The notes beneath the pieces were generated by a model. That model had not been told where the DNA came from, did not search any database, and was given only the letters and a program-made list of their open reading frames with translations. Source: a virus. From it: a stretch of 64,000 bases of DNA. The translations under genes were made by a program, and so were the position numbers. The stretch spans positions 1-64,000 of IMG/VR virus record IMGVR_UViG_3300021433_000003, one strand, 5' to 3'. Within the stretch, counting starts at the first letter, position 1. The number at the start of each line of letters is the position of its first letter. Of the stretch, positions 8,381 to 57,337 are shown piece by piece.

Positions 8381-9349
8381 ATGGCTTTTCTTACCGGATA
8401 CGCGTCGATCTCTCGACGCGCGATGACGGGCACAATCCCGGTAGTTGCGCGTTCTCATCCATTAGCGAAAGGACTATTGGCTGCGTTTTATCCGGCCGCC
8501 TTCCCTGGCAGCACAATGACAAATTTAGCTGTTCCGGGGCTACTGGATCTAACGGTACGCCGCAACGCAAACTCATATAACGTGAACACTCCAGAGGGGC
8601 CAGGCCTTAATGGCATCTTGGGCCAGGCAAACACATCTGGGCTTCCAGCGAATTTTGTAGCTAACCCGCCAACAGGCGCGGTGTCGCTGTTCATCCGAGG
8701 AAAGTGGGGGCCTATAAATACTGGCACTGCGCCCGCCCAGATGTTTGGTTTCTATATAAATACGACGAACTTTCTTCAGCTTGCTCTACTGGCTGCTCCC
8801 GATCAACCAGCTCCGTCCGACAGTGTTATTGGTGTTGCATACCCAACTAACACCACAACCACAGCGTTGCCTGCGGGGACAACGGTGCCGGTTGTGGGAT
8901 CTATGGTTTCGGCCGGAGCGTCGTTCGTTTCAGGCGCGCTTCCTTCGCTTTATGTGAATGGTATCCAGCAGGTGCTCCAAGGGAGCCCGTCGGTAATGGT
9001 GTCTCCACTCGCGAACTGGAATGCCAATGGGCAGTTTACTCTTCAAGAGTTTCAGAGCAGTACTCGAACAGGCAGCATGGTGGCGACCGTTGCTTATGCA
9101 TGGGGCAACAGATTTTTAACGGCTGGGGAACATGCTTATCTGAATGCAAATCCTTATTCACTGCTGCGATGGCCTATTGATGTCGTTTATGACGTGCTTG
9201 AACAACCAGCCAGCACACCGCCCACTGGTACGGCGACAAGCAAGGCGATGATCCTCGCGCCGCTGACTGTCGGGCTTGGCGGCGTGGCTACGGCCGAACG
9301 CTGGCTGCGTCAGCGCAAGGACGCGATCCGACGACTTCGCGGTGAATGA
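8381..9349 (+). CDS. LamG/concanavalin-like tail protein, 322 aa
   Basis: The start ATG at 8381 follows the previous stop by 7 bases. Residues 25-60 read HPLAKGLLAAFYP, and the C-terminal part has VAYAWGNRFLTAGEHAYLNA followed by NPYSLLRWP. Together these match the beginning and end of the LamG-like (concanavalin-type) domains common in proteobacterial phage proteins, where the last strand is followed by the L-A-NPY-LF-P tail. It has no signal peptide, unlike all its neighbours, and ends in a basic helix (RWLRQRKDAIRRLRGE). Likely a carbohydrate-binding tail component. Confidence 0.7.
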   Translation: MAFLTGYASISRRAMTGTIPVVARSHPLAKGLLAAFYPAAFPGSTMTNLAVPGLLDLTVRRNANSYNVNTPEGPGLNGILGQANTSGLPANFVANPPTGAVSLFIRGKWGPINTGTAPAQMFGFYINTTNFLQLALLAAPDQPAPSDSVIGVAYPTNTTTTALPAGTTVPVVGSMVSAGASFVSGALPSLYVNGIQQVLQGSPSVMVSPLANWNANGQFTLQEFQSSTRTGSMVATVAYAWGNRFLTAGEHAYLNANPYSLLRWPIDVVYDVLEQPASTPPTGTATSKAMILAPLTVGLGGVATAERWLRQRKDAIRRLRGE

Positions 9350-11028: not shown

Positions 11029-11032
11029 AGTG

Positions 11033-14866: not shown

Positions 14867-17800
14867 TACTGCGTCTTCTCGTCGTCATGCTGACGCTGTG
14901 CCTTCCGGCGTCGGCGCACTTCCGGCTGGGGAGCCACGGCGCGGCGTCTTCTGTGTCGTCTGGCGTGGTTTTCTCTCAGACGGTCAAGAACATCGCCAGC
15001 GCGACGACGCCGACGATCGCTGGCACGACGATGGTCGCGACGCATATCGGCACGATGTATCCGCCCGGCGCGGTCCCATCCGGTGATATCGTGGTTGCCA
15101 AGGTCGGCGGCGTTACTCTCGCGAGCGCCCAGATCGACAGCCAGCAGTGCTCGTTCTGGCCAGACGGATCGTTGAGGTTCTGCCCGTTCTCGGGCTTTGT
15201 GCCACAGATGGCGTCGGGAGCCAGTCAGCAAGTTACTTTTTCAGTTCAGGCCGGCAGCTTCCCTACATCATCCTCAGTGACTCCAGCCACGATCGCTGCT
15301 GCGAGCGACTTCAAGGTCGTGCTGAGCAACATGAACGGTTCCTATACGAAGCAGGGTCCGCAGGGACCATCAGTCTGGTACGGGGCCTATCCCGGTTTCT
15401 ATGTGTCAGGTGGCGCGATCTCTGGCGGGTATGTCAGGAACCAGCCTACGACCGCGGCGGCTCCACAAGGCTTGCTCGGCTTCAACTGCACGTCGGGTAG
15501 CGCGAATTGCATCACACCATCGAATTACCAAGCGTCTGTCAGTACGACTACATCGTCAGGTAGCGCGGTCCTGACTTTCTCCAGCCTCCCTGTCCCGCCA
15601 CAGTACATTTTCAACAACCCCCAGCAAATCACTATCATCGACGTAACGAATCCGAGCTCGATCCCGGACAACACGACGGTTTTGTCGTTTAATAGCAGCG
15701 CAAAGACGGTAACGATGTCCGCCAACGCCGCCGCGAATATTACCTCCGGCGATACTCTCGCATTTGGCTACACGATCCACGGGGGAACCAGCAACGGGGC
15801 CTTCACGGTCACCGTGAATGGCTCCAATGTCATAACCGGCGTCAATATCATCAAGGCTGGCGGTGGCTTTTCGGCGGTCGGCTCCGGGGCGATGACCGCC
15901 GACATTGATACGATCCTCAACGCCTATGGCTCGACCGATCCATCGAGTTGTGCGTCGATGCCAGGGGCAGCCGCCTTCACGGAGTCGTTTTCCGGCTCGA
16001 CGATGACGGTTTCGAGCGTGACGGGCGTGGTCTCGATCGGACAGATGGTCGATGACGGAACCAACCTTGCGATAATCACGGCTGGCAGCGGCACGACATG
16101 GACGATCCAGGGTACGTTAGCAGCGGGTCCGATATCGGCCACGTCCACCCCGGCCCTGTGCGTCTACACCTCCGGCCCGACTGTGAAGGCGTATCGAGGC
16201 ATCGGCGCATACCGCGACAACGTAAGCGGCACCAAAGATGCCTGGGAGCGGTTCCGCTTCACCATCGAGGCGTGGACCGGACCTACCGGTCTATATGCGA
16301 TCAAGCCGGTAATTACTACCGATAATTCAGTCTATAAAAACCACAATGGCTGGCCGAACGTCGTCTACGACGCCGACTTCAAGAACGGCTCGACCGAGAT
16401 CATCGGCTGTGCGCAGGGCGGCTCAAATAACAAATGGTGTGCGATCCAGCAGCAGGTCAACGGCTCGTGGGCGGCGCTCGATCCATGCGAGGCCTGCGCG
16501 ATCGGAGCAACCGGCCGGCCAGTGTGGTTGCCGACGACGACAGGAACTTACAGCACACCGAACAGCCAAGCTCTCGCGCAGGTAGTCGTCTCCCCAGCCT
16601 CAGCCGACCTCGCCTTCATCCACGCCGCGCGGGCGGCTCTGCCGCTGAATAACACAATCACGGTCAGTCCGGCCGTGCTTACGACGACGACGGGGACATT
16701 CGGCTCGCCTTATTACACGAACCTCTATGCGCCCTATGAGCATGGCGGGACCGACGCAACGACAGGATTTGGGTCGGGTGGTTCTGGGCATATTGGCCTT
16801 GGGCCAATGGGATCGCCTTGGGCATACTGGTATCAGGCAGCCGAAGGCGGTGCGAGCGACGGCGGCGTTAGCTATCTAGCAAACATGAGAGTTGCCGCCG
16901 AATCAACGGCAGGCATGATGGATGGACCGCGGTACGATGACACGGGACTGCCGTTAAATTACTTCAACTCAGGCAGCGGATATACCCCGCCAGCGGCGTT
17001 CACGGACTCCAATACCTGGGATTTCGTGATGGATCAGTACAACAAGGCAGCTAGCTATCCCAATGATTTTATGTGGCAGGGCGATGTCCCGTCTCCGACT
17101 ACCGCCCAGCCGGCCCTGGCCAATACACAGATCGAGAATAACGACGGATACGGCGACACATCGCACTGGCCTGAGTTCCAGCACGGCATTTATTTGGTCG
17201 AGGCTGAGCGGTACATCTTGGAGAATTGGATCGACGAAGCGAATGGGGTGGCGTTAGGGCCATCCAATACCGATGGAAACACGCGATCTCTGTCATTCGG
17301 CGGAACGAGATATGATGCGCAAGGGATGAGCAGCAGCATTCCGCGGCAAAACTCGTGGTGGGCAAATGTGACTGTGCCGGTGGCATATCTCGGGCCGCCG
17401 AACGAGCCCTCTATCCAATACTACAAGCACGTCGTTGCCACCAACTACGCGATGAATTACGCTTTCTACAGTTTCATAGGCACCGGCAATTTCTGGGATG
17501 CGGCGGCGGGGGCTTCGGTGTGGCCGTTCCCCAAGTATTATGACAATACCGCCAACGGCGATCAGGCGACGCCGGAGGATTACAGGACTACGGTTCCGAA
17601 CAATTCGTCAATAATTGATACATTATTCATGCAACTGTATTGGGGCATGAACACCGACGAGGCGGTGATGTTCGATAACGGCAACGACGCCAACCTCACT
17701 GGTTTTGCGCGCAATTTCCTGGACAACTACTTGGTCAAGAACCCGGCTATCAATACCTGCGCCTACAACAATGTTGCCTATGTAATCAAATGGGCAAATG

Positions 17801-18765
17801 CGACCACCCACCAGACCGCGCCTTATGTATCGCCCCAACCGGGATGGGACGCGACGACGGTCACCGGAACGCCCCAGCGTGGGAATGGCCCAATCTCCGG
17901 CGATAATACGATCCACACCGAAAATGGTTCATCGACCGTCTCGGCGTCGCTGGAAACCGCCGGCAACACCGGAGCGTGGTCATTCACGCCGACGGCGACC
18001 GCGCCGGTGTCACCCGGAGGCACTTCGATCCCGCTGTCTAGCGTCACCTCACCGCAAAGCGGGCCGATAACGACGGGATGGGTGATCAAGGATCTCGACA
18101 ATCCAACCGCCCTTACATGGCCGACCTATGTCACCGCGCCTGCCTCGGGGCTGACGATCTCGATCTCGTCTCCGGTGACCGGGCCAGGAATCTCGATCAA
18201 TGACCGCATCGTGGTGTCGGCGAGTTGGCCGTGGGTCTATCCGATCTTCTCGACAACTCGGCTGGCGTCCGGCACGCGGATGAGCATCGCCGACGTTGAT
18301 TGGCACGATCAGACGAGCCCGAGCGACTCCAGCCAAGGGCTGTCGGGATGGCCACCGTCCTCGACCCCACAGGTGACCGATGGGCAATGGCTTTGGCTTT
18401 GCATGGACGCTTCTGGCGCGGCATTTGGCCAACTGAGCACGACACAACCAACGATCTCGGGCGGTGTTTGCACCGGCGGCACAACCTACGTGACCTGGAA
18501 CATCACCGCCGATTTTGGGGTGGCGACGATAGCTAATGCGAGTTGTCCGGCGGCATCGTCCGGTGACTGGCGCAATCCTGCCGTGAACGGTGAGGAAGAG
18601 GCTGAGATGTATGCCACCGCGCAATGGCGCAAGGCGCTCAACGGCGTCCTCGGGACTAGCACCGACGCGAACACGGCAATCACCCAACTGACGCCTTATG
18701 TAACCCCGCTAAGCACGACCTACAGCGACGGGCAGGTTCAGTGGGGCGCGGACAATCATTTCTGA
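14860..18765 (+). CDS. Very large secreted, putative polysaccharide-active protein (YetA/PcRGLX-like), 1301 aa
   Basis: The ATG at 14860 gives a proper signal peptide (MLILRLLVVMLTLCLPASA) and the HFRLGSHG tag; an in-frame ATG at 14821 would spoil it. Near residue 70 are PPGAVPSGDIVV and FWPDGSLRF, a motif pair seen in YetA/PcRGLX-type (exo-rhamnogalacturonan lyase-related) proteins. The middle (about 700-900) has GDTSHWPEFQHGIYLVEAER and RQNSWWANVTVPVAY, resembling the alpha/alpha-barrel part of the same group. Beta-sandwich segments follow and the protein ends near QWGADNHF. Substrate unknown. Largest gene in the window and last in the adhesin array. Confidence 0.55.
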   Translation: MLILRLLVVMLTLCLPASAHFRLGSHGAASSVSSGVVFSQTVKNIASATTPTIAGTTMVATHIGTMYPPGAVPSGDIVVAKVGGVTLASAQIDSQQCSFWPDGSLRFCPFSGFVPQMASGASQQVTFSVQAGSFPTSSSVTPATIAAASDFKVVLSNMNGSYTKQGPQGPSVWYGAYPGFYVSGGAISGGYVRNQPTTAAAPQGLLGFNCTSGSANCITPSNYQASVSTTTSSGSAVLTFSSLPVPPQYIFNNPQQITIIDVTNPSSIPDNTTVLSFNSSAKTVTMSANAAANITSGDTLAFGYTIHGGTSNGAFTVTVNGSNVITGVNIIKAGGGFSAVGSGAMTADIDTILNAYGSTDPSSCASMPGAAAFTESFSGSTMTVSSVTGVVSIGQMVDDGTNLAIITAGSGTTWTIQGTLAAGPISATSTPALCVYTSGPTVKAYRGIGAYRDNVSGTKDAWERFRFTIEAWTGPTGLYAIKPVITTDNSVYKNHNGWPNVVYDADFKNGSTEIIGCAQGGSNNKWCAIQQQVNGSWAALDPCEACAIGATGRPVWLPTTTGTYSTPNSQALAQVVVSPASADLAFIHAARAALPLNNTITVSPAVLTTTTGTFGSPYYTNLYAPYEHGGTDATTGFGSGGSGHIGLGPMGSPWAYWYQAAEGGASDGGVSYLANMRVAAESTAGMMDGPRYDDTGLPLNYFNSGSGYTPPAAFTDSNTWDFVMDQYNKAASYPNDFMWQGDVPSPTTAQPALANTQIENNDGYGDTSHWPEFQHGIYLVEAERYILENWIDEANGVALGPSNTDGNTRSLSFGGTRYDAQGMSSSIPRQNSWWANVTVPVAYLGPPNEPSIQYYKHVVATNYAMNYAFYSFIGTGNFWDAAAGASVWPFPKYYDNTANGDQATPEDYRTTVPNNSSIIDTLFMQLYWGMNTDEAVMFDNGNDANLTGFARNFLDNYLVKNPAINTCAYNNVAYVIKWANATTHQTAPYVSPQPGWDATTVTGTPQRGNGPISGDNTIHTENGSSTVSASLETAGNTGAWSFTPTATAPVSPGGTSIPLSSVTSPQSGPITTGWVIKDLDNPTALTWPTYVTAPASGLTISISSPVTGPGISINDRIVVSASWPWVYPIFSTTRLASGTRMSIADVDWHDQTSPSDSSQGLSGWPPSSTPQVTDGQWLWLCMDASGAAFGQLSTTQPTISGGVCTGGTTYVTWNITADFGVATIANASCPAASSGDWRNPAVNGEEEAEMYATAQWRKALNGVLGTSTDANTAITQLTPYVTPLSTTYSDGQVQWGADNHF

Positions 18766-28794: not shown

Positions 28795-29379
28795 TTGCCC
28801 GGCATCCTCGCGCTCGACATAGCTACCACGACGGGTGCGGCGTTCGCGCTGCCGGGCGAGCGGCCCGTGTGGCGGCACAAACGATTCGGCAAACCGGGGG
28901 ACGATGACGGCAAAGTGGGCGTCTTGTTCCACGACTGGCTGGACGCCATCATGGGCGAGTGCGGGGGGCCGGATTGGGCCGTCTTTGAGGCGCCGTTTAT
29001 TCCGCGCGGCGCGATCTCGGTCAACAACGCCACCATCCGCCGGCTCTACGGCCTGGCCATGATCGCTCAGATGGTGGCGCACAATTGGGGGGCGAAGTGT
29101 CGCGAGGTAGACACGGCCTCGGTCGCAAAGCACTTCACCGGGCAGGCCCGGTGGGGTGGGCGGGAGGCGAAGAAAGCCGCGACCCGCCGCGTATGCGAGC
29201 GCTACGGATGGGCTCCGGTGACCGAAGATGAGGCTGATGCACTTGCCGTGCTGGTTTACGCCGAAGCGCTGATTGACCCCATAGCGGCCTCGCGGCGTGG
29301 GCCGGGACCGCTGTTTGTCAGGCCGGCATCGGCGATTAGGTTGCCCACCACGCCGCAAGATCGTCGGCAGTCCCGCTGA
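28795..29379 (+). CDS. RuvC-like Holliday-junction resolvase, 194 aa
   Basis: TTG start 1 base after the GapR stop is the simplest choice, giving LPGILALDIATTTGAAFALP. That is the first RNase-H-fold strand of RuvC-like enzymes with the catalytic Asp. The second acid is in WAVFEAPFIP, and the last in the EDEADALAVLVYAEA helix. The family resolves four-way junctions and branched replication or packaging intermediates. It overlaps the convergent endolysin gene by 44 bases. Confidence 0.75.
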   Translation: MPGILALDIATTTGAAFALPGERPVWRHKRFGKPGDDDGKVGVLFHDWLDAIMGECGGPDWAVFEAPFIPRGAISVNNATIRRLYGLAMIAQMVAHNWGAKCREVDTASVAKHFTGQARWGGREAKKAATRRVCERYGWAPVTEDEADALAVLVYAEALIDPIAASRRGPGPLFVRPASAIRLPTTPQDRRQSR

Positions 29380-29935
29380 ACTGACTTCGGTCACAGATAC
29401 CGCCGACCCCAGGGCAATCGCCGCTCGATGTGTATTGCCACAGAGTCCACATATCCCACCCATCTGGCGGGACTGGGTTAGGACCATACTCCGGCAGCCA
29501 CAGCGGACAGCGAGTCAGAACCGAATTTGGTAGACCGGCACCATCGCCGGTCGGTCCCCATCGCCCCATGTAGACAAGCGGGAGCTTCCCGGTAGCCATT
29601 TGCAGGCGGGCTACCAGCTCGGCGGCTTGCGCGATCGAGACCGTGTCCCCCATGCCATTCGCTTCGATGTCGATGGCCAACCGAGGCATAGAGCCGGCTA
29701 TACCCAAGAAATTGCCAACCTGAGCGCATGGGTCCGATGCGTCGGCGAAGTGATAGGCGCCCACTAGCAAACCAGCAGCTCGGGCGGCGGAGCTGCGCTC
29801 GATAAAGGTAAAGTCCACCCAACTCGCGCCTTGCGTCGCCTTCAAGATTACGGCGAGCACGCCGCTTGCCTCCACAGCCGCGAAGTTGACGGGCGATTGC
29901 CAATGGGAGAGGTCAAGCACCACGTCAATCATCAT
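29336..29935 (-). CDS. GH25 endolysin (muramidase), 199 aa
   Basis: The GH25 pattern is clear: VVLDLSHWQ with D8 at the start, GAYHFAD, LAIDIEANG with the D-x-E pair (D89, E91), LWLPEYG and WTLWQYTSSGDCPGVGGI with SQFSGT near the end. GH25 enzymes hydrolyse the beta-1,4 bond between MurNAc and GlcNAc. No signal peptide, so export would need a holin. It sits on the minus strand, far from the holin-like cluster at 18.8-20.8 kb. Confidence 0.85.
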   Translation of the reverse strand: MMIDVVLDLSHWQSPVNFAAVEASGVLAVILKATQGASWVDFTFIERSSAARAAGLLVGAYHFADASDPCAQVGNFLGIAGSMPRLAIDIEANGMGDTVSIAQAAELVARLQMATGKLPLVYMGRWGPTGDGAGLPNSVLTRCPLWLPEYGPNPVPPDGWDMWTLWQYTSSGDCPGVGGICDRSQFSGTADDLAAWWAT

Positions 29936-40492: not shown

Positions 40493-40715
40493 GCCGGCCG
40501 CGCCAAAGGTCCAGACGCTATACGGCGATTACGCCGTGGCATGGACCCTTTCTGGCATGACAATTGTGCGCGCCAGATCGGCTGCCGAAGCTCAGGGTAA
40601 ATTCGACGCGATGTCGCGGGCGAGCATGCTGAACCGCTCCAGGCCTTCATTCCAGCGGGCAGTTGTTTGCCTTGATCCAGCAGCTACCATTGGAGGCGAT
40701 GACGGCCATGGCTGA
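40485..40715 (+). CDS. Small hypothetical protein, 76 aa
   Basis: GTG start. LYGDYAVAWTLSGMTIVRAR and AEAQGKFDAMSRAS suggest a small beta-alpha protein. The C-terminus overlaps the HNH gene start, and may have been altered by its insertion. No family recognised. Confidence 0.4.
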   Translation: MAEPAAPKVQTLYGDYAVAWTLSGMTIVRARSAAEAQGKFDAMSRASMLNRSRPSFQRAVVCLDPAATIGGDDGHG

Positions 40716-41208
40716 GCATTGGTGGGTCGGCGGCCCTAAGGCGGCACCAGTAAAAAATCGCCTACTTCGGCATATCGACATAGATAATGTCGGCTGCTGG
40801 AATTGGACGGGGGCCACAAAGAACGGATATGGGTCTATAACCATCGGTTCAGCGTCAGATGGCACAAGACATTCGGAATCTACTCACCGGGCGTCGTACT
40901 TGGAATTCAAGGGCGACATCCCCGCAGGAATGTTCGTGTGTCACAAATGCGATAACAAGTTGTGCATAAACCCAGATCACCTATTCGTAGGGACGAACCG
41001 CGATAATATTGCCGATTGCATCAACAAAGGATTATTTGGAAATCACAAAGGATCTGCCAATTCACAAAGCACGCTCACTGACGATGACGTGCGGAAAATA
41101 CGGTCATCACCCCTAAGTCAGGCTGAATCACTGGCCGCATCGCTCGGCGTTACCCGTGGTCACGTTCTCAAGATTATGAAGGGCGAGAGATGGGCACACT
41201 TGTCGTAA
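40699..41208 (+). CDS. HNH homing endonuclease with C-terminal HTH, 169 aa
   Basis: HNH_3-type pattern: VGCWNWTGATKNGYGSITIG, STHRASYLEFKGDIPAGMFV, CHKCDNKLCINPDHLFVGTN with the H, CD and NPDHL signatures. The C-terminal VRKIRSSPLSQAESLAASLG, VTRGHVLKIMKGER is a helix-turn-helix used for DNA recognition. Free-standing, with flanking genes overlapping both ends. Likely a mobile selfish gene. Confidence 0.8.
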   Translation: MTAMAEHWWVGGPKAAPVKNRLLRHIDIDNVGCWNWTGATKNGYGSITIGSASDGTRHSESTHRASYLEFKGDIPAGMFVCHKCDNKLCINPDHLFVGTNRDNIADCINKGLFGNHKGSANSQSTLTDDDVRKIRSSPLSQAESLAASLGVTRGHVLKIMKGERWAHLS

Positions 41209-41579
41209 CCGATCGAGACCGCGAGATGGCCGTAGCTTGGCTTAAAGCATCTTGCACGGTGGCGTCGGCGTTGGTGATCATGGACTTGGCTAATCAATTC
41301 GCCGACGCGCGCGAGGAAGGCCGGCTCGCGGAGCGCGAGAAATGGATCGCGCTTGCGGGGCCATATTGGCGAACTGGTCGCGAAATCAGCCCCCTCGCAT
41401 TACTGGCCGCGGCTCGGCGCGAGGCGATCGAGGAATGCGCTAAGATCGCCGACGGGGGCGCGGCTCTGTTAGATGGCATTGAGATTGAGATAAAATTCGT
41501 CACACCCGAAAAGCTGGCCACCGATTTGGCCAAAGACATTGCTGACGGTATTCGGTCCCTCGGAAAGGAACCAACATGA
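41190..41579 (+). CDS. Hypothetical protein, 129 aa
   Basis: Overlaps the end of the HNH gene by 19 bases. Helical with hydrophobic start (ASALVIMDLANQFADAREEG), then RLAEREKWIALAGPYWRTGR and IEECAKIADGG. The pattern around RREAIEECAKIAD is common in small phage proteins of unknown role. Overlaps the next gene by ATGA. Confidence 0.55.
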   Translation: MGTLVVTDRDREMAVAWLKASCTVASALVIMDLANQFADAREEGRLAEREKWIALAGPYWRTGREISPLALLAAARREAIEECAKIADGGAALLDGIEIEIKFVTPEKLATDLAKDIADGIRSLGKEPT

Positions 41580-42022
41580 AGCACGCGCTCACCTCTACCG
41601 CGCTCGCCTTGGTGCTCGCGGCTTCTGGCGCGGCCCACGCCGGATGTCCCGGCAATGCCCCTCCCGGCGGGTCCGGTGTCGGCGATTGTCCTGGCTGGCG
41701 GCAGGTCGATATGTCGCCCGCTCCGTCAACGGGAGCCGGGGTCTACACGCTACGGCTCTGGGGCGATGGCAAGACTCTTCGCCCCTCGGTGGCGTTCTTC
41801 CTACCGGGGTTCGGCCCAGCTTTCTCGGAGCACTGTGATTTCGCGCCGCAGGTGGGTAGCGTCGGCTGGCCAGGCGCCGGGTCTCCTGCGATCGGCCCCG
41901 AGTTTCAGGGCGGCGGCTCGGCAGTGGTCAACGGGCAGCGTCTGGTCTATATCGACTTCAATCTTGCAGACGTAATTCCCGCTGGGACCGCTGTGTTCCT
42001 GAGCGGCCACTGCAACTTCTAG
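41576..42022 (+). CDS. Secreted small protein, 148 aa
   Basis: Signal peptide KHALTSTALALVLAASGAAHA, then cysteine-containing GCPGNAPPGGSGVGDCPGWR. Mature part is beta-rich (AGVYTLRLWGDGKTLRPSVA, VYIDFNLADVIPAGTAVFLS) and ends GHCNF. No family recognised. It precedes the PEP-CTERM gene and may share its location outside the cell. Confidence 0.6.
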   Translation: MKHALTSTALALVLAASGAAHAGCPGNAPPGGSGVGDCPGWRQVDMSPAPSTGAGVYTLRLWGDGKTLRPSVAFFLPGFGPAFSEHCDFAPQVGSVGWPGAGSPAIGPEFQGGGSAVVNGQRLVYIDFNLADVIPAGTAVFLSGHCNF

Positions 42023-42032
42023 GGGAACCGAC

Positions 42033-42680
42033 ATGCGCGAAATGATCCTGGCCGCAGGCTTTGCGGCGCTGACCATCACCTCGGCCCATGCCGACCAGAT
42101 TACTTTGGGCAACAGCCCGGTCGCCGCCTGCGACCTCGCCGGGACGGGGAGCAGTCATCCCTTGGCGATGTCGTGCGCGCCATATCACGAGTCGGCGCTG
42201 TTCCAAAGCGATGTCGGGGTCGCCTCGTTCGGCCCCGAGGCGCTGGCGACCGGGCCGGGGGCGGGCGGGGTCTTCCCGGTAATTTCTCAGACCATGCCGG
42301 GCGAGACGCTGAGCATCCTATTTGGCGATGGCGATCACATCAGCGGTACGGTCGACTGGACCAATCTCAACAACGGCTCTACCAACCCGCACATCGTCGG
42401 CGAATTCAAGTACGTCGCGACCGGCGACGCAGACTTTCTCGGGTCGTACAACACCTCGGGCCTCGCCGAACTCGACATGATTGCCGAGACGACGGCGCTG
42501 ACCCTGGAAAATTGGGACACCGATGCTGGTCTGACGTGGTCCTCGGGCGAGATCGTGGATCTGGGCGCGCCGCTGCCCGAGCCGCAAACTCTCGGCTTGC
42601 TCGCCTTCGGCTTGCTGGCGCTGTGGGGCTGGCTGAATCGCAACCGGCGCGGCAGCTCCGTCGGCCTCGGTGGCCCATGA
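42033..42680 (+). CDS. PEP-CTERM-sorted exported protein, 215 aa
   Basis: Has an N-terminal signal peptide (MREMILAAGFAALTITSAHA) and a C-terminal PEP-CTERM signal: LPEPQTLGLLAFGLLAL, a short membrane stretch, then the basic RNRR. Such signals direct processing by exosortase (EpsH-type) in extracellular-polysaccharide-producing Gram-negatives. The middle is a beta-rich extracellular domain (ISQTMPGETLSILFGDGDHI, LGSYNTSGLAELDMIAETTA), a pattern common in PEP-CTERM proteins. No exosortase is seen here, so the host would have to supply it. Rare in phages. Confidence 0.75.
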   Translation: MREMILAAGFAALTITSAHADQITLGNSPVAACDLAGTGSSHPLAMSCAPYHESALFQSDVGVASFGPEALATGPGAGGVFPVISQTMPGETLSILFGDGDHISGTVDWTNLNNGSTNPHIVGEFKYVATGDADFLGSYNTSGLAELDMIAETTALTLENWDTDAGLTWSSGEIVDLGAPLPEPQTLGLLAFGLLALWGWLNRNRRGSSVGLGGP

Positions 42681-42940
42681 CCAAGGGGGTCGACCGGGCT
42701 GAGCCGAACACCCCCCTTCTTGCTCGCCCCGTTCAGGGCATAATTGATCATGAGGCGCTTAGCCGGGAGTTCATGTGCCGCTTCCCGGTTATCCGATATA
42801 AGCTGGCTGGCCTGGATCGCTGGACGGTGGTACGGCGGGTTGATCGGGCTCTGAGTCTATTGATCATTGTGGCCTCGGCACTGCTCGGCGCGGAGGCGCT
42901 GTGCTGGCTTGGGAACGCGCTGCATCTCCCGCTGGGATGA
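42677..42940 (+). CDS. Single-pass membrane protein, 87 aa
   Basis: ATG overlaps the PEP-CTERM stop (ATGA). Residues 55-75 (ALSLLIIVASALLGAEALCW) are a membrane helix with positive charge before it (RRVDRA). The N-terminal half is polar. No family; lies between the PEP-CTERM gene and the O-antigen ligase-like gene. Confidence 0.5.
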   Translation: MTKGVDRAEPNTPLLARPVQGIIDHEALSREFMCRFPVIRYKLAGLDRWTVVRRVDRALSLLIIVASALLGAEALCWLGNALHLPLG

Positions 42941-43052
42941 TCTGGCATTCGTAGCCAAGGCGCTGGCGTTTGCTGGGGCCTCGCGACTGGCTGGGCCGTC
43001 GGCCCCCGATCATGGCGTGGATGATCGTCGATGCGACGATCACGGTTTAGGT

Positions 43053-43907
43053 TTGGGCGCGGTAGCATTCTTGGTCACGGTGGCGTGGTTCCCGGCGGGT
43101 GGTATGATAATGCCGCGTTGGTTGGTTCTGGCGGTTGGATTGCCGCTGACGGTGGTGTCTTCTTGGGCCGCCTGGCGCTGCGGTCGAGCCTGGGTATATC
43201 TGGTGGCTGGGCTGATCTACGCGGCGATGTCGATCGCATGGGCTCCCGACCGGCTTGGTGCGTTGCAGCAACTCTCTCAGATGGGGATTTTGGCGGTGGC
43301 GTTCGTGGCCGGGGCCGGCATCGTAGGGGCACGGTCGTTCGACCTCGTCATGGCCTTCTTCGCGGTTGGTTTGATGGTTTCGGCGCTGCTGTGCGTTCCG
43401 CAAGCTTTGGGCTGGTCCGGCATCCCGCAGAGTGCCCCGCCGGCAGGGCTATTCTATAACCGAGACGTGCTGGCGGAAACCGTGGCCCCCGTGCTGGTGT
43501 GGGCGATCCTTCAGCATCGGTATACGATGACGGCGGTATTGTTGATTCCGCTCCTGCTGTGCGGTTCGCGGGTCGCGTTGTTCGCCGCTGCTGTCGGGCT
43601 CCTTTACGGCTTGCCTATGCGGTGGCGCTGGCGGCTAATGGGGATGGCTGCTACCCTTGTGGCCGGCCTCGGGCTCTTGCTGTTGATGGGCCGGGAGAAA
43701 GCGGCCGATGCGCTGTTCCGCATCGTGCTGTGGGCCGATACCCTTACCGCCATCACTCCGTTTGGCCATGGCATCGGCTCGTTCGCGGCGCGCAACCCGG
43801 TGCTGGTGTATGCCCATAGCGACTCCTTGCAGGCAGCTTACGAGTTGGGCATCGGCGCGCTGCCGTTGCTGGCAATCCCGGTGCTGATCTGGCGGAGGAA
43901 GCAATGA
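43053..43907 (+). CDS. O-antigen ligase/polymerase-like (Wzy family) membrane protein, 284 aa
   Basis: Multi-pass membrane protein. Features of the Wzy_C/O-antigen ligase group: a GSRVALFAAAVGLLYGLPMR helix with the conserved GSR, the IVLWADTLTAITPFGHGIGS with FGHGIGSF, and VYAHSDSLQAAYELGIGALP where the H-N/S-D motif sits. About eight membrane segments are visible. Start uncertain: TTG 43053 gives a first helix, ATG 43104 a shorter protein, and the frame is open further upstream. It stops after VLIWRRKQ, before the usual last helix, which appears in the next gene. It would act in the inner membrane on lipid-linked glycans. Confidence 0.65.
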   Translation: MGAVAFLVTVAWFPAGGMIMPRWLVLAVGLPLTVVSSWAAWRCGRAWVYLVAGLIYAAMSIAWAPDRLGALQQLSQMGILAVAFVAGAGIVGARSFDLVMAFFAVGLMVSALLCVPQALGWSGIPQSAPPAGLFYNRDVLAETVAPVLVWAILQHRYTMTAVLLIPLLLCGSRVALFAAAVGLLYGLPMRWRWRLMGMAATLVAGLGLLLLMGREKAADALFRIVLWADTLTAITPFGHGIGSFAARNPVLVYAHSDSLQAAYELGIGALPLLAIPVLIWRRKQ

Positions 43908-44038
43908 ATGACCGGGCGGCCCGCGCCGTCTTCCTCGTGATCTGCATCGAGGCTGTGCTGTCGTTCCCGCTGCACCTGCCGGTTACGGGCATGCTGGCGG
44001 CGGTGACCGCGGGATATCTCTGTAGTAGGGTTTTATGA
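43904..44038 (+). CDS. C-terminal helix of the O-antigen ligase-like protein, separate 44-aa ORF
   Basis: ATG overlaps the preceding stop (ATGA). VFLVICIEAVLSFPLHLPVT, GMLAAVTAGYLCS resembles the final membrane segment of O-antigen ligases, where a FPLH-PVT-turn precedes the last helix. Together with the previous gene it would complete the protein. Either a natural split into two subunits, or a recent disruption. Confidence 0.55.
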   Translation: MNDRAARAVFLVICIEAVLSFPLHLPVTGMLAAVTAGYLCSRVL

Positions 44039-44289
44039 TGGATACCGAGAAGGAGAGGCCAATGAAAGTGGTGGTCCCAATCTCCCATGGGGAGATCAGT
44101 TGGGCTCCTTCGGTGGGTGATCATCCGCCATATAATTTGCTAATATCCTATCGGATAGAGTTCGAGCCAGACGGAAGCGGCTTCATCGAGATATTGGCTG
44201 AGCCGGGGGCAATCAGGACCAACAGTGACGGCTGGATGTGTCTTCGCCTTCCCGCCGAATTGTTTTCGGAAAAGATCACAGGTTCATGA
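44035..44289 (+). CDS. Small hypothetical protein, 84 aa
   Basis: ATGATGG start overlaps the previous stop. Beta-rich: MKVVVPISHGEISWAPSVGD, LLISYRIEFEPDGSGFIEIL, WMCLRLPAELFSEK. No family recognised. Lies between the Wzy-like and J-domain genes. Confidence 0.5.
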   Translation: MMDTEKERPMKVVVPISHGEISWAPSVGDHPPYNLLISYRIEFEPDGSGFIEILAEPGAIRTNSDGWMCLRLPAELFSEKITGS

Positions 44290-44912
44290 CCTTGTATGAC
44301 GAACTTGGTGTTGCGCCGTCCGCCACCGCCGCAGAGATCGGCCGAGCCTATCGCCGGCGGGCGAAGAAGGCGCATCCCGATCATGGTGGTGACCGCGCCG
44401 AGTTCGAGCGGCTGGCGCACGCCAAAGCGGTGCTGGCCGACCCCGACCGCCGCCGCCGCTACGACGAAACCGGAGATGAGGGCGCGGCGAACGCCGACAG
44501 GGAATTGGCGGCAGTGCTCGACATACTGGCTCGAGCGCTCGATGCCGCGATCCAGGCGGCGATGCAAGACCTGTCGCGGGTGAATGTACTGGCCCTGGCA
44601 CGACTGGACATCGCCAAACAGCGTGGCGCACTTGATGCCAAGTGCGGGCAGATCCGGGTAATCGTCGAGAAATACGAAGCCGTGGCCGCGCGTTTCAGGG
44701 CACCGAAGGGCAAGCCCGACCGCGTCGGCGCCATCATGCGCGCCCGGCTATCTGACGCCCGCCGGCAACTGGCGGCGATCGAAGGCCAGGCGGCGACGCT
44801 GGACAAGGCTGCCGCGATGTTGGAGGGGTATGAGTACCGTACCGACGCCCCTTTGGGGCCGCAGGGGTTTGCGCCGCTCGGATTGCAGACCTGGAATTTG
44901 GGCTTGCGCTGA
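44286..44912 (+). CDS. J-domain protein with C-terminal coiled coil, 208 aa
   Basis: ATG overlaps the previous stop. Residues 1-60 form a J domain: LYDELGVAPSATAAEIGRAY, the HPD motif at 30-32 (KKAHPDHGGDRAEF) and AVLADPDRRRRYDETGD. The HPD stimulates Hsp70 ATPase, so it would recruit the host DnaK. The remainder is a helical coil (IAKQRGALDAKCGQIRVIVE) and a short C-terminal tail (LGPQGFAPLGLQTWNLGLR); the DnaJ Gly/Phe and zinc domains are absent. Placed just before the terminase, suggesting a role in assembly or lysis timing by inference. Confidence 0.8.
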   Translation: MTLYDELGVAPSATAAEIGRAYRRRAKKAHPDHGGDRAEFERLAHAKAVLADPDRRRRYDETGDEGAANADRELAAVLDILARALDAAIQAAMQDLSRVNVLALARLDIAKQRGALDAKCGQIRVIVEKYEAVAARFRAPKGKPDRVGAIMRARLSDARRQLAAIEGQAATLDKAAAMLEGYEYRTDAPLGPQGFAPLGLQTWNLGLR

Positions 44913-45202
44913 TGGGCGAGATGTCCGGTCTGCTGCGGTCGATAACGGAACATGCGGGCGGTGAGGCCCCGGAATTCATGGTGGTGGGGGTGGATGATTA
45001 TTGCTCGCTGATCGAGAGCGCCGCGAGCAATCCGTGGGAATTGCGTAGGATGCTTAGGACGGCTGTGCCTGGCTGGTCGGCAAGCCGCAGAACGGCGTCC
45101 TGGAGGCATTTGAACGTGCCTCGTCGCCGCATTATCCGGCGCTTCCGCCCTAATTCGGGACCGCCGGGGTCACGAAACCGTTTCTGGACCTTTCTCCGCT
45201 AA
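44912..45202 (+). CDS. Small hypothetical protein, 96 aa
   Basis: ATG shares bases with the J-domain stop. The first half is folded-looking (APEFMVVGVDDYCSLIESAA), the second very basic (SWRHLNVPRRRIIRRFRPNS). Position directly before the large terminase suggests a small terminase subunit or DNA-binding accessory, but there is no HTH I can identify. Confidence 0.45.
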   Translation: MGEMSGLLRSITEHAGGEAPEFMVVGVDDYCSLIESAASNPWELRRMLRTAVPGWSASRRTASWRHLNVPRRRIIRRFRPNSGPPGSRNRFWTFLR

Positions 45203-47115
45203 TGTCCGCAGTAGTCCCGTCGACGACCCGGTTCCACCGCGACGCCTTCGAGGAAGCCTTCTACGACTTCCTAAAACACGTCACCATCGTCTCTAAGAAC
45301 TCGGGTCCGACTATCATCGACCCCTATCGAGCGCAGCGTTACGCGCTCGACCAGATTTTCGATGGGCTTGCCAACGGCATTCACTGGTTTGTGATCCTAA
45401 AGGCCCGGCAGCTCGGGATCACCACTCTAACCCTGTTGCTCGACCTGTTCTGGTGCGCCCTCTATCCGGGGCTGCAAGGCGCCTTAGTCACCGACAACGA
45501 CCCCAACAAGGAGAAGCTGCGGCTGTTGGTCACCGAGATCCTCGATTATCTGCCGAAATCGCATCCGCTGCCGATCCGCAAGCACAACCGCAACGGTCTG
45601 GTGTTCGAGAATGGTTCGATGATCGACTACCTTGTGGCCGGCACCCAGAAGCGCAAGGGCGCGCTGGGCCGGTCGCGAGCGCTGAACTTCATGCACTCGA
45701 CCGAGACCGCGCAATATGGCGATGTCGAGGGCTGGGAATCGCTGATGTCCTCGCTGTCGGACACCTATCCGTGGCGGCTCTACGTCGTCGAGTCTACGGC
45801 GCATGGCTATAACCTTTTTGAGAATGCGTGGCAGGATTCCATCTCCGACGACCTGACCAAGCGGGCGGTGTTTATCGGCTGGTGGCAGCATGACGAGTAC
45901 CTGATCCCAAAGGGCACGCCGCTGTTCCAGCGTTACGGCTACGACCGCCTGTCTGATGATGAGGTCGAGACCGCGAAGATCGTCAAGGAAACCTATGACT
46001 GGACGATCACCTTGGAGCAGTGGGCATGGTATCGTCACCGCAAAGACCCGCAACGCCGCGCCGATAGCGGCGAGATCGACGAGGGTAAGGGCGAGATTAT
46101 CGAGGTCGAGTTTCCGTCTTATGCCGAAGAAGCCTTCCGCATGTCGGGCTCGCCTTTTCTGCCGGGACGGACCCTTGATCAGTCGATGAAGGTGGCGCAG
46201 GAGCAACTGTTCAAGGCGTACACTTACTATTTCGGGGACAATTTCCTGGCGTTGCGGCGGCATCAGGTCGATGTGGCCAGGCTCGCCCAACTGAAGGTGT
46301 GGCAGCCGCCCCACCCCAACGGGCGCTACGTCGTCGCCGCCGATCCTGCCTATGCGTCGAGCGACACCGCCGACCGTTTCTGCCTGCAAGTCGTCCGCCT
46401 CTACGCCGACCGGCTAGTCCAAGTCGCCGAGTTCGCGGTGCGCAACATGCAGCCGTTCCAGTTTACCTGGGTTCTCGCCGACCTCTGCGGCTGGTATGGC
46501 AATTGCCGCTATATCCTGGAGATCAACGGTCCCGGCGAAGCGGTGATGACCGAGTTCCGCCACCTCAAGACCTTACTGGACACCGGCAAGCTTGTCGCGC
46601 CTCGCCAAGACGATGAGGCGGACGACCCTCAGGACGGTCGCCGCCCTCCCTCGCCGCTCGCCAATGTCAGCCAGTATCTGTTTCACAGGCCGGACGCTAT
46701 ATCAGGCTCGTGGAGCATACAATGGAAAACTACAGCGTTCAATAAGCCGGTACTTATGAACTCTATGGGCGATCACTACATGATGGGCAACCTCGTGGTG
46801 AACTCGGTTCCGGCGCTGGCCGAGATGAAAAAGCTGGTGCGCAAGGGGATGCAGATCGAGGCCGACGGCAACGCCAAGGACGATCGCGCGGTGGCGTTGG
46901 CGCTTGGGACTCGGGTGTGGATCGATTTCGAGCGGGCCGAGTTGGAGGCTTCGGGCCGGACTTTTGCCATCGAGACCGCCCGCGATGCCGAGGACGAGCA
47001 TGGCGCCGGGCCGGATTATATGACATATGTGATGCAGAACCATTTCCGCATGGCGGAGCGCCAGCGCAGGGACGATGCGCGCCGCGCTCGCCGGCAAGGA
47101 CGGTGGGCGTGGTGA
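45202..47115 (+). CDS. terL: Terminase large subunit, 637 aa
   Basis: ATPase part: Walker A-type KARQLGITT at 67-75, a Walker B-like LNFMHSTE at 161-168 and the coupling motif YVVESTAHG near 195-202. Nuclease part: VVAADPAYASSDTADRF near 375, YILEINGPGEAV near 435 and KDDRAVALALG near 565, supplying the acidic residues of an RNase-H fold. It drives DNA translocation into the prohead and cuts the concatemer. Nuclease and ATPase in one protein as usual. Length is slightly above average. It starts the late + strand block. Confidence 0.9.
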   Translation: MSAVVPSTTRFHRDAFEEAFYDFLKHVTIVSKNSGPTIIDPYRAQRYALDQIFDGLANGIHWFVILKARQLGITTLTLLLDLFWCALYPGLQGALVTDNDPNKEKLRLLVTEILDYLPKSHPLPIRKHNRNGLVFENGSMIDYLVAGTQKRKGALGRSRALNFMHSTETAQYGDVEGWESLMSSLSDTYPWRLYVVESTAHGYNLFENAWQDSISDDLTKRAVFIGWWQHDEYLIPKGTPLFQRYGYDRLSDDEVETAKIVKETYDWTITLEQWAWYRHRKDPQRRADSGEIDEGKGEIIEVEFPSYAEEAFRMSGSPFLPGRTLDQSMKVAQEQLFKAYTYYFGDNFLALRRHQVDVARLAQLKVWQPPHPNGRYVVAADPAYASSDTADRFCLQVVRLYADRLVQVAEFAVRNMQPFQFTWVLADLCGWYGNCRYILEINGPGEAVMTEFRHLKTLLDTGKLVAPRQDDEADDPQDGRRPPSPLANVSQYLFHRPDAISGSWSIQWKTTAFNKPVLMNSMGDHYMMGNLVVNSVPALAEMKKLVRKGMQIEADGNAKDDRAVALALGTRVWIDFERAELEASGRTFAIETARDAEDEHGAGPDYMTYVMQNHFRMAERQRRDDARRARRQGRWAW

Positions 47116-47116
47116 C

Positions 47117-47662
47117 GTGGCGCTAGTTTTCAGAACTTACTTATGTCCTGATTGCGACCGGCGGTTCGAGCTGTTGCAGGAGCGCGGCGACGGCCCGCCG
47201 CGCTTTTGTGTGAATTGCGGCGTCGACTTTGGTGACGAAGAGCTGGAGCCGGTTCCGGCGAAAGTCGCGATCGGCGGCTCGGCCATCGCTCGCGCGACGG
47301 ACGGAACCTACCGGGCGCTGGAGGAATCTTCTGCTGCCCGAGCCCAAGCGCTTGACGCGCCTTACCTGAAAATCACCGACATGAACGATCGCCAGCGGGA
47401 GGGCGATGTCGCGGCCAAGGTGCCGATGAATGTGGTGACCAATTTCGCGCAGGAAGCCAAGAACAATATCGGGGTCAATTACATGGGATGGGGCGGCGGC
47501 ATGGCAGGAGCGCGGGTGGCCCCGGCCATGCCGGGGCCGGCGGCCGGAGCCAGCTTTACCGGGCCGGGGCATATCGCGCTCAGCGCTATTCAGCCCAAGC
47601 ATCAGGGCGAAGTGCAGAACAACGTGGCGCACCCGATGGCGAAGCCGTATGTGAGGGGGTGA
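47117..47662 (+). CDS. Zinc-ribbon hypothetical protein, 181 aa
   Basis: GTG start at 47117, 1 base after the terminase stop. The N-terminus is a zinc ribbon (YLCPDCDRRFELLQE, RFCVNCGVDFGDEEL). Then a helical linker (KITDMNDRQREGDVAAKVPM) and a Gly/Pro-rich tail. This zinc-ribbon protein beside terminase and portal genes is a known arrangement in phages, though its function is unclear. Confidence 0.6.
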   Translation: MALVFRTYLCPDCDRRFELLQERGDGPPRFCVNCGVDFGDEELEPVPAKVAIGGSAIARATDGTYRALEESSAARAQALDAPYLKITDMNDRQREGDVAAKVPMNVVTNFAQEAKNNIGVNYMGWGGGMAGARVAPAMPGPAAGASFTGPGHIALSAIQPKHQGEVQNNVAHPMAKPYVRG

Positions 47663-47880
47663 TGAAGCGGATCTTGCAGCAATTACCCCCCGCCGCATTG
47701 CAGCAATTGGCCGCCCAAGTCGGCGGGTCCGGCGAGCCGCAATTCTGGTCGCCGAAACTGCCGGGGGTTTATTGGCCGAAGCCGCCTGCCGGTGCCACGA
47801 TCGTCCTTGAAGGTGATCCGCCGCACGCTGCCTATGTCGAGGTCAATCACGCCTTGCCGGCGCAGCCGAGGCGGCGGTGA
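47662..47880 (+). CDS. Small hypothetical protein, 72 aa
   Basis: ATG at 47662 overlaps the preceding stop (GATGA). LQQLPPAALQQLAAQVGGSG, PKLPGVYWPKPPAGATIVLE. Proline-rich. Head-module accessory of unknown function. Confidence 0.5.
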   Translation: MKRILQQLPPAALQQLAAQVGGSGEPQFWSPKLPGVYWPKPPAGATIVLEGDPPHAAYVEVNHALPAQPRRR

Positions 47881-48137
47881 TTTTCCATCCCCCCGACGCG
47901 CATGTGATTGGATTGCCGGAAGGCGATGTGGTGGCAGTCGGTGAATTGCGCGGGGTGCTTCATAAACCTCGCGCTGACGGCGTGTCGTTCACCTCCTTTG
48001 TCCGCTACGGGCTGATGGCTGCGGCCTATGTGTTTCCCGAGCGGCCGAACGATGCGGCGATCCTGCGGCTCGGCGAAATCACTAGGGACTTCGGAACCAT
48101 GGAAGCCACCGCCCGCAAGAAACTCGGCCTCGCATGA
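47877..48137 (+). CDS. Small hypothetical protein, 86 aa
   Basis: GTG start (GTGA overlap). FHPPDAHVIGLPEGDVVAVG, VSFTSFVRYGLMAAAYVFPE and AAILRLGEITRDFGTMEATA. Small folded protein just before the portal gene. No family recognised. Confidence 0.55.
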   Translation: MIFHPPDAHVIGLPEGDVVAVGELRGVLHKPRADGVSFTSFVRYGLMAAAYVFPERPNDAAILRLGEITRDFGTMEATARKKLGLA

Positions 48138-49832: not shown

Positions 49833-50132
49833 ATGATGGTTTCGGACCATTCCGATATATGGGGAAAACCGACCTGGGGTTGGATCTTTACGTGGCACGA
49901 CCGGCCAGGCGGAACACTAGTCGTGACTAGCAAGGGGCACGATAGCCCGGAGTCGGCATTTCAGGCCGCGTTAGAGAGCGCTCTTCGCTTCGGTTACACG
50001 CGGCCGCGCTGGTGGGAGTGGTGGCGTTGGTCCGAGCAGAATGAGTTCCGAAAGCAGCCGCCCCTAAATGTACTGCCGAGGTCAAGGGCCACTGTAATGT
50101 CAGCGGCGGCCTCGCGGCCGAGCGCCAAATGA
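49833..50132 (+). CDS. Small tryptophan-rich hypothetical protein, 99 aa
   Basis: HSDIWGKPTWGWIFTWHDRP and RPRWWEWWRWSEQNEF are strikingly Trp-rich. Small domain with a likely double-beta core, then a short polar tail. Overlaps the next gene by ATGA. No family recognised. Confidence 0.5.
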   Translation: MMVSDHSDIWGKPTWGWIFTWHDRPGGTLVVTSKGHDSPESAFQAALESALRFGYTRPRWWEWWRWSEQNEFRKQPPLNVLPRSRATVMSAAASRPSAK

Positions 50133-50578
50133 CAGTCATAGCCTACTCGGTCGAGCATGGCGAGCTAGCGGCCGACTCGGCCGTGTGGAAGTCGAACAGC
50201 CAGATCATCCACGGCTTTGTGAAGAAGATTTATCGCCTTGGCGACGGCCGGTTGTTCGCGGCCTGGGGGCGGTCCTGCGATATCGAGTATTGTGCCAAGT
50301 GGCTGGAGAGCGGTGGCCTGTCCGAAACCAAGCCGGCGGCTGTTGACAAGGATGATTTTGGCGGCCTGCTGATCGGGCCGTTGTGTGACGATGTGTTTTT
50401 GGTCGAGTACGATTTCCGGCCTTACCGCGCGCACCATGCCAGATACTATGTCGCCGGCGCGCACGGGGACTTCCTAATGGGAGCGATGCTAGCGGGGGCG
50501 ACTCCCTTCGAGGCGGTAAGGCTCGCGATCGGCTGGGGCGACAGCGCCGGTGGCGAGATCCAAGTCGAGCAGATCTAG
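50129..50578 (+). CDS. HslV/proteasome-like Ntn hydrolase, 149 aa
   Basis: After removal of Met1, Thr2 becomes the N-terminal residue (MTVIAYSVEHGELAADSAVW), as in HslV and proteasome beta subunits. The Asp of AADSAV and the Lys of VKKIYRLGDG correspond to the catalytic Asp17 and Lys33 of that family. Later AGAHGDFLMGAMLAGATPFE, AVRLAIGWGDSAGGEIQ matches the C-terminal half with its GDSAGG. Placed between portal and scaffold, where a prohead protease would sit. Confidence 0.7.
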   Translation: MTVIAYSVEHGELAADSAVWKSNSQIIHGFVKKIYRLGDGRLFAAWGRSCDIEYCAKWLESGGLSETKPAAVDKDDFGGLLIGPLCDDVFLVEYDFRPYRAHHARYYVAGAHGDFLMGAMLAGATPFEAVRLAIGWGDSAGGEIQVEQI

Positions 50579-55175: not shown

Positions 55176-55868
55176 ATGGCGCTCACCGCGTATGAAATCG
55201 TCACGCTGAGGCTGCTGGACGATCCTACCAACGCCGTCTATTCGACGCAGGAGGTCGACACCGCGATCAACGCTGGCCGCGGTCAGATCGCCGCCGCCAC
55301 GCATTGCGTTCGATACACTGGAGCCGTCTCGACGACGGTCGGGGGCGCGGTTTATCCACTTGCCGGCCTTTCGGTCGAGACCGGGGTTCAAGGCGCCCTC
55401 ACCGCTCAGATAGGTTTTATCTCAGGCGCGCAGTTTGCGTATCGGCCTTGGGAGTGGTTCGTTGCCTATCGAACCTTGGCACACGGCGCCCCGAATATGT
55501 GGTCGATCCAAGAGCCGGGGCCGCTCGGCTCCATCTCCGTCGATCCCGTCCCGGATAACATCTATCCGCTGAGTTTCGACCTGATCGGCCGTCCGGTCAT
55601 TTTGGTCGATGACACGACGCCCGAGGCCATCCCGTATCCTTGGACCGAAGCGGTGCCGTATTTTGCGGCGTACCTGCTCTATCAGGACAAGCAGCGCACC
55701 GCCGATGCGCTCGCCCTTTTGCAGCGCTGGGGCGAGTTTATGTCGTGGGGGACGCGAGCGGTCGTCTCGACCGTGCTGCCGCTCTACTCGCCCGGCGGCG
55801 GGGCTTCGCGCGAGGCCGCATCGAAGATCGTAAATACCGGGTTCGGCCCCTCAGCCGGAGGCCGCTGA
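55176..55868 (+). CDS. Tail adaptor / tubular A-like protein, 230 aa
   Basis: N-terminal LTAYEIVTLRLLDDPTNAVY, STQEVDTAINAGRGQIAAAT is the helical start of gp11-like adaptors (L---V-LLDD-----S-D-AINAARQ-IA). The C-terminal part contains TEAVPYFAAYLLYQDKQRTA, DALALLQRWGEF, typical of the same group. It would connect portal and tail hub. A longer relative lies at 57565-58593. Confidence 0.65.
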   Translation: MALTAYEIVTLRLLDDPTNAVYSTQEVDTAINAGRGQIAAATHCVRYTGAVSTTVGGAVYPLAGLSVETGVQGALTAQIGFISGAQFAYRPWEWFVAYRTLAHGAPNMWSIQEPGPLGSISVDPVPDNIYPLSFDLIGRPVILVDDTTPEAIPYPWTEAVPYFAAYLLYQDKQRTADALALLQRWGEFMSWGTRAVVSTVLPLYSPGGGASREAASKIVNTGFGPSAGGR

Positions 55869-57337
55869 TGCGCAAATTCCTGCTGGCCTTGGTCGCCATG
55901 ATGGCGGTGGGCTTCGGCGGTGTGGCGCTGTCCCAATCCGGCATCTGCATCCAATGCTTGGCGCCGGCACTGCTGCCTCTCCTCGGCACGGAATATGTCC
56001 CGTGCTCGCAAGGCGGCGCCACGGTCAGGTGCCCGTACTTCTCCAGCGTCCTCGATATCCGAGCCTTTGGCCTGACCAGCAATCCGATCAATCTTTACAT
56101 CTCGCAGCTCGGAAATGATGGTGGGTCGCCGGGCTCCGGCACGAATTTATGCATCTACATCGCTCAGCCATGCTTGACCAAGGCGCAAGCGGTCAATTCC
56201 GCCTTTCTGTTCAACGCCGCGGGCGGGAATATCATAATTCACGCGCTGGCTGGCGGGACGAATACGTGGAATGAGAGCGTCTTTGTAAACAGCCCGTTGC
56301 TCGGAAGCGCCAACTCCTTTCCCAACCCGACCATTGCCCCGCCTGCCGTCCAAGATAGCGGGCAGTTGATCTTCGACGGCGGCGGCACCGAGAATTGGAA
56401 CGGCGGTAGCGCTGACTGCGCCACCATCGGCGTCGGCGATCACGCCACGGTGGCGATCATGAACATGGCGCTGATCAGCGGCACGGGATCGGGATGTAGC
56501 TCAACCGGCTTCGTCCAGATCGGCGGCACCCTCAACCTCTTGGCCGGCAACACCTGGGGACCGGCTACCGTTGCTATCTGGCACAACGAAAATTCCGGCT
56601 CCAATCTTGGGATTTGGGCCGATCAGAACGTCTCGGGCAACGCGACATTCCTCTCCGTCTCCGGCTCGGGGGCGTCCAGCCTGATATCCGCGGGCCATCT
56701 GAATTTTGTCGGCAACCCCACGCTCGGGACGCTGTTCTATGTCGAGGCGTCGATCACCCAGATCAATCCGGCCAACATTTTCCAGGGAACCGCCGTCGTA
56801 ACCGACGAGTATCAAGTAAAATACGGCGGCCAGCTTCTTTTCTACCTGACGCAATCACCGCAATGGCCAGGAGGGGGTGGGACTGGCTTTCTTTATAGCG
56901 GCGGGCGCATCAACAACGCCAGCGACGATAGCTATAACACGCCCTGCGTCGCCGGTAACGTGGGATGCCCCCTAACTTCTCCCTCGCCGACCGGCAACGT
57001 AACGGTTTCGGTTGTAGACGGCTCTGGTCCATATGCTGGGAAGGTTGACATTCTGGCTGGGGCAAGCGCTGCGGCGACTGGGTCATTCTATCTGAGCTTC
57101 CCGTCGATCTTGGTTAGCGACACTGGCCTGAACGGGCTCTGTAGTTTTACGCTAGCCATTGGCGGACCGTCGCCAGGGGTTTGGCCTAGCTTCAATGCCG
57201 GCTCGTTCACCGTCTATTCTTTCGTGCGTGGCGCGGACGATACAATCGGGCCGGCAAGCCACGTCGCATTTCTTTGGGCATCTCCGGTGGTCTTGCCGGC
57301 CGGAGACTACCTAGTTAAGTACAATTGTAACAATTAG
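55868..57337 (+). CDS. Secreted tail-type protein with CIQC/QGGATV module, 489 aa
   Basis: ATG at 55868 overlaps the preceding stop; it opens with a signal peptide (MRKFLLALVAMMAVGFGGVA) and GICIQCLAPALLPLLGTEYV, PCSQGGATVRCP. The same module follows the signal peptide at 4532. The remainder is a beta-rich, repeat-like sequence (HVTVSGNATFLSVSGSG-type strands), probably a right-handed beta helix (pectate-lyase-like) with a C-terminal beta-sandwich. Likely an adhesin or tailspike; no catalytic residues identified. Confidence 0.6.
   Translation: MRKFLLALVAMMAVGFGGVALSQSGICIQCLAPALLPLLGTEYVPCSQGGATVRCPYFSSVLDIRAFGLTSNPINLYISQLGNDGGSPGSGTNLCIYIAQPCLTKAQAVNSAFLFNAAGGNIIIHALAGGTNTWNESVFVNSPLLGSANSFPNPTIAPPAVQDSGQLIFDGGGTENWNGGSADCATIGVGDHATVAIMNMALISGTGSGCSSTGFVQIGGTLNLLAGNTWGPATVAIWHNENSGSNLGIWADQNVSGNATFLSVSGSGASSLISAGHLNFVGNPTLGTLFYVEASITQINPANIFQGTAVVTDEYQVKYGGQLLFYLTQSPQWPGGGGTGFLYSGGRINNASDDSYNTPCVAGNVGCPLTSPSPTGNVTVSVVDGSGPYAGKVDILAGASAAATGSFYLSFPSILVSDTGLNGLCSFTLAIGGPSPGVWPSFNAGSFTVYSFVRGADDTIGPASHVAFLWASPVVLPAGDYLVKYNCNN

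Follow-up and report, generated by a model that had tools for sequence, protein, structure and literature searches.

The locus at 43053-44038 raises the question of whether a phage gene resembling an O-antigen ligase, divided near its 3' end into two reading frames, encodes an enzyme made as two chains or the remains of one made as a single chain, and what such an enzyme would do for the phage. The window analysed here, a stretch of 64,000 nucleotides, covers almost the whole of a 65,422-base virus record, which is linear and may be incomplete. The initial annotation described two overlapping open reading frames joined by an ATGA, and both are present at the positions it gave. The first, ORF1 (43053..43907, + strand), comprises 284 codons from a TTG at 43053 to a stop codon at 43905-43907 and is predicted to form ten or so membrane helices and a periplasmic catalytic loop. 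Its start is uncertain: the open frame reaches back to 42867, the TTG has no clear ribosome site, and the alternative start codons ATG 43104 and 43110 would truncate the first helix. The second, ORF2 (43904..44038, + strand, frame -1 relative to ORF1), comprises 44 codons and begins in the ATGA at 43904..43907, where its start overlaps the ORF1 stop. The FPLHLPVT turn previously noticed in ORF2 is there, but the single last helix attributed to it is replaced by the last two predicted membrane helices of the protein.

The GSR and GHGIGSF signatures named in the initial annotation were both found in ORF1, as GSR (R173) and FGHGIGSF (residues 237-244). Searched alone, ORF1 matched Wzy_C (PF04932) with an E-value of 6.1e-5 and 23.3 bits, below the Pfam cut-off of 31.7, and neither ORF had a match in PHROGs or NCBIfam. 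Scans of viral contigs yielded 11 records, then the distant L023, and then L044 and L045, giving 14 virus records; identical proteins in two pairs (L002/L003 and L008/L012) reduced these to 12 distinct relative proteins. Wzy_C was matched over the cut-off in eight of ten relative virus records, and at E ≤ 0.01 by eight of the nine members of an alignment that included ORF1 of the window. These matches remove the doubt left by the sub-cut-off score of ORF1 and uphold its assignment to the O-antigen ligase type.

When the profile of this alignment was searched against the PDB, the sole sequence reached at E ≤ 10 was WaaL of Cupriavidus metallidurans (7TPG/7TPJ; E 1.2e-4). The structural model of ORF1 alone was poor (pLDDT 65, pTM 0.62) and returned no WaaL match (0 hits at E ≤ 0.001). 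The model of an intact relative, L007 (pLDDT 71, pTM 0.72), had WaaL as its top match (Z 16.5, rmsd 4.3, 291 residues), followed by FtsW (9.6) and RodA (9.4), and Foldseek alone also placed WaaL first (E 3.1e-4). The RodA/FtsW glycan polymerases belong to the same broad class of folds, at Z 8 to 9.6, with a match far weaker than that to WaaL. WaaL itself differs in its low identity (∼13%) and in being a single chain, whereas the ligase of the window phage would have two. At the level of sequence, ORF1 and ORF2 together are confirmed as a real, divergent, phage-borne membrane glycan ligase of the WaaL/Wzy_C type, with predicted activity.

In window numbering, R173, R223, H255, E264 and the FGHGIGSF block do not vary among the nine aligned sequences, and R173, R223 and H255 align to R191 (in a weak stretch) and to the catalytic-loop residues R265 and H313 of the 7TPG chain, which we take to be key residues of WaaL. 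All three of these aligned positions lie on ORF1, leaving none to ORF2. Passages of PMC12800693 describe, for WaaL and PglS, arginines believed to act on the lipid diphosphate as well as a proposed catalytic histidine.

The view that the two ORFs are one split gene was borne out by the relatives. ORF2 was connected to them by blastp. Against a profile of nine viral relatives (L002 and L004-L011, with the window left out), ORF1 scored 167.5 bits and ended at profile position 292, ORF2 scored 34.8 bits over positions 294-333, and the joined product scored 205.1 bits. This contiguity, from 292 to 294, indicates a single protein divided between the two ORFs with no part missing, and confirms by homology that they are pieces of one ligase. 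The initial annotation had also suggested checking the split in related phages. Homology there is indeed to one gene, and no further case of the split turned up: the ligase is a single uninterrupted ORF in all 14 viral records, making the split private to the window phage. In the L007 model, the equivalent loop (residues 279-283) lies after the catalytic loop, between helices 266-278 and 284-297. Positive charges flank the split (WRRKQ and NDRAAR), from which the interrupted loop, short and positively charged, is probably cytoplasmic.

Several features of the junction support real translation of ORF2, short of proof of function. A Shine-Dalgarno match, GGAGGA (43894..43899, + strand), ends 4 nt before the ORF2 ATG. 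How rarely such an arrangement occurs by chance was computed from mechanically called ORFs, each 200 aa or longer, drawn from the window and nine loci; some of these ORFs are certainly not genes. Among 1,615 out-of-frame stops of the same phase, 199 formed an ATGA with an in-frame ATG, and seven of these also had a Shine-Dalgarno match of at least five bases. ATGA coupling recurs in the same gene block, at 41576 and 42677. The codon-position GC content of ORF2 (0.64/0.45/0.80) is close to that of ORF1 (0.64/0.50/0.77) and of the large terminase gene, TerL (0.62/0.41/0.79). A -1 frameshift fusing ORF1 to ORF2 was considered and rejected: by eye, no classical slippery heptamer was seen near 43890-43907, and coupled reinitiation is therefore preferred.

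The explanation that we favour, with confidence evenly balanced, is that the locus encodes one GT-C-type WaaL/Wzy_C glycan ligase made as two translationally coupled chains, with an activity predicted from its sequence. Ribosomes finishing ORF1 at the ATGA would restart immediately, aided by GGAGGA, to make ORF2. ORF1 would supply the catalytic loop and the remaining helices, and ORF2 the final two. As the break falls in a short, probably cytoplasmic loop, the chains could insert separately and pack like their single-chain relatives. The assembled enzyme would transfer a host-made glycan from undecaprenyl diphosphate to an acceptor facing the periplasm. We weighed against this two-chain form the want of a second example in the 14 viral records, the poor model of ORF1 alone, its Wzy_C score below the Pfam cut-off, the missing start signal of ORF1 and the want of close kin of the phage, in which selection on ORF2 might show. 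Nature has here set up a trial of whether two separate chains can make a working GT-C ligase.

The initial annotation left it undecided whether the split is natural or a recent inactivation. Contiguous homology, the Shine-Dalgarno match, the ATGA and codon bias make a translated two-chain gene the probable answer, and we favour it over recent inactivation, its main rival, which is possible but the less probable of the two. On that account, a single-chain ligase was interrupted in the loop by a small indel or by misassembly, the ATGA and the Shine-Dalgarno match are coincidental, and the copy is dead or dying. The single ORF in each of the 14 other viral records fits such an event, as does a short AATGAATGA direct repeat at the junction, where slippage may have occurred; also missing from the window are the polar C-terminal tail and the TPR-like companion gene of the relatives. 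However, essentially no residues are missing or garbled at the junction, the codon bias of ORF2 is preserved, such a start would arise by chance at just seven in 1,615 comparable stops, and the homopolymers at the junction are never longer than 2.

The companion gene was seen in all 11 of the relative loci examined (L002, L004, L005, L006, L007, L009/L029, L010/L028, L011, L012, L044 and L045) as a +1-offset frame that continues across the stop codon of the ligase, its product having a hydrophobic stretch and then a TPR-like segment. The segment surrounds an FPLDxR-like motif, by which the frames were partly picked. Examples lie at 6953-7240 in L005, 6944-7138 in L007, 6830-7270 in L011, 8989-9291 in L044 and 8962-9369 in L045. 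A profile of seven companions recovered those of L044 (E 3.1e-17) and L045 (E 4.7e-17), both from outside the profile, with L002 at just 0.13, and found nothing in L023 or in the window stretch 42001-48000. Pfam TPR was matched by four of five companions tested, below the cut-off only. In the window, ORF2 ends about where the companion overlap would start. In cellular proteins, Wzy_C can precede TPR within one chain, so the phage ligase and its companion may be such a Wzy_C-TPR protein broken into two overlapping genes. The companion is a candidate partner subunit of the ligase, and a frameshift is one possible route to its translation in the relatives.

The gene block around the ligase is on the + strand throughout. 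It begins with an HNH endonuclease gene (40663-41208) and a gene without assigned function (41190-41579), to which a gene for an exported protein with a signal peptide (41576..42022) is coupled by an ATGA. The next gene (42033..42680) encodes an exported protein with a signal peptide and a C-terminal PEP-CTERM signal (PF07589), which scored just under the cut-off in one search (E 6.8e-4) and above it in a second search (24.1 bits against 20.7), where the window's was the one record of 11 virus records to match. Exosortase (PF09721) had no match at E ≤ 1 in the same number of virus records, so that a host enzyme would be needed for this protein. It had no match in the phage collection, and nor did the exported neighbours of the relatives at L006 5273-5950 and L029 7246-7668. 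An 87-codon ORF with one predicted helix (42677..42940), read from the sequence and ATGA-coupled to the PEP-CTERM gene, is next upstream of the ligase. ORF2 is followed by a 75-codon ORF (44062..44289) without assigned function or any Pfam, PHROG or NCBIfam match; it has an AAGGAG-like site at ATG 44062, and the open frame extends back to ATG 44035, in an ATGA overlap with the ORF2 stop. A DnaJ-domain gene (within 44238-44912, by Pfam) lies directly upstream of TerL (45202-47115), and the ligase gene precedes TerL by 1.2 kb in the same orientation, beside the exported-protein genes. The head genes come after TerL, with the major head protein at 53319. An HslV-family peptidase match near them (50129-50578) is perhaps a prohead protease. 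A glycosyl hydrolase family 25 lysozyme gene lies far from the ligase on the - strand (29336-29935).

In the relatives, the ligase gene has terminase, head, endolysin and exported-protein genes around it. A family of small exported proteins adjoins the ligase in five loci (L004 1581-2234, L005 5120-5950, L006 5273-5950, L011 7203-7889 and L029 4807-5430).

The role that we consider most likely, and hold weakly, is that the predicted ligase changes the host surface glycan during infection and so blocks the binding of phages of the same type. We rank this above glycosylation of exported phage proteins. The superinfection exclusion and serotype change suggested in the initial annotation are candidate roles. 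No D3-like partner was recognised among the ten ORFs tested and no recombinase in the record, and the gene is placed by the terminase and exported-protein genes, so that acceptors other than the host surface are possible.

We consider it improbable that the ligase is instead a protein O-glycosyltransferase, placing host lipid-linked glycan on exported phage proteins and not on lipopolysaccharide. The signal-peptide genes upstream in the window (41576-42022 and 42033-42680) are in keeping with this, as is the membrane-anchored TPR-like partner overlapping the ligase in the 11 relative loci. Each of nine relative loci also has at least two signal-peptide-like ORFs by an uncalibrated rule, not all of them adjacent to the ligase. 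However, such ORFs are common elsewhere in these genomes (the window has 16 among its 85 greedy ORFs by the same kind of simple, uncalibrated rule), and proximity may mean little. PglL carries PglL_A and Wzy_C_2 domains, neither of which was found in any of the nine aligned members, where Wzy_C was the only domain found. The O-linking oligosaccharyltransferases PglL and PglS do share the Wzy_C family and its active-site plan, as passages of PMC12800693 describe, and transferases such as PglS thereby give protein glycosylation a precedent within the family.

That the gene belongs to a D3-type cassette for serotype conversion, acting in lysogens, is likewise unlikely. Its precedents are other phage-borne Wzy_C membrane proteins, namely Wzy-beta of phage D3 (an O-antigen polymerase/ligase), which acts in serotype conversion, and VG_p25 of the Variovorax phage VarioGold, which is proposed to be active in lysogeny (both in passages of PMC9658991). 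Against it, the 65,422-base record, linear and possibly incomplete, holds no tyrosine or serine recombinase, and integrase matches were found in two of eight relative records, one over the cut-off. The ligase also reads in the same direction as TerL, a short way upstream of it, whereas the VarioGold gene is opposite its late genes. The ten ORFs tested (40663-47115) contained no O-acetylase family match and no other D3 seroconversion partner such as a polymerase inhibitor, for which the profiles could miss a small Iap. The window gene differs further from those of D3 and VarioGold in being split, in the overlapping TPR-like gene of its relatives and in its isolation: the window and L007 proteins had no tblastn match at E ≤ 0.01 in 50,697 phage records.

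Most speculative, and very unlikely, is a phage-borne machine for periplasmic glycan transfer, with a ligase natively in two chains here, a membrane-anchored TPR-like subunit overprinted out of frame in the relatives and phage exported proteins as acceptors, which if true would amount to a viral system for glycosylating proteins beyond the cytoplasm.

No relative of the ligase was found in 72,556 plasmid records, and the four loci found in cellular genomes gave matches too weak and partial (27-51% over short stretches) for a cellular donor to be named. A TerL search in viral contigs returned no close kin of the phage, and its TerL matches in phages were all below 60% identity (17 of 17 records). 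The published literature on phage glycan ligases and exported proteins, covered mostly at the level of listings, yielded no split phage ligase, overlapping TPR gene or phage PEP-CTERM protein. Genes with which phages alter surface glycans have been described in temperate phages infecting a few bacteria; here a divergent viral branch of the WaaL family stands beside exported-protein genes and, in the relatives, an overlapping TPR-like gene.

Signal-peptide-like starts were also observed in the structural-gene half of the window (3932-4894, 9346-18765 and 55640-57337), on several ORFs of which some are very large (up to 1,314 aa). None of four searched against PHROGs (9346, 13130, 14821 and 55640) had a match, and none of seven matched Pfam over the cut-off. 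Such starts are unusual for virion proteins, which are made in the cytoplasm.
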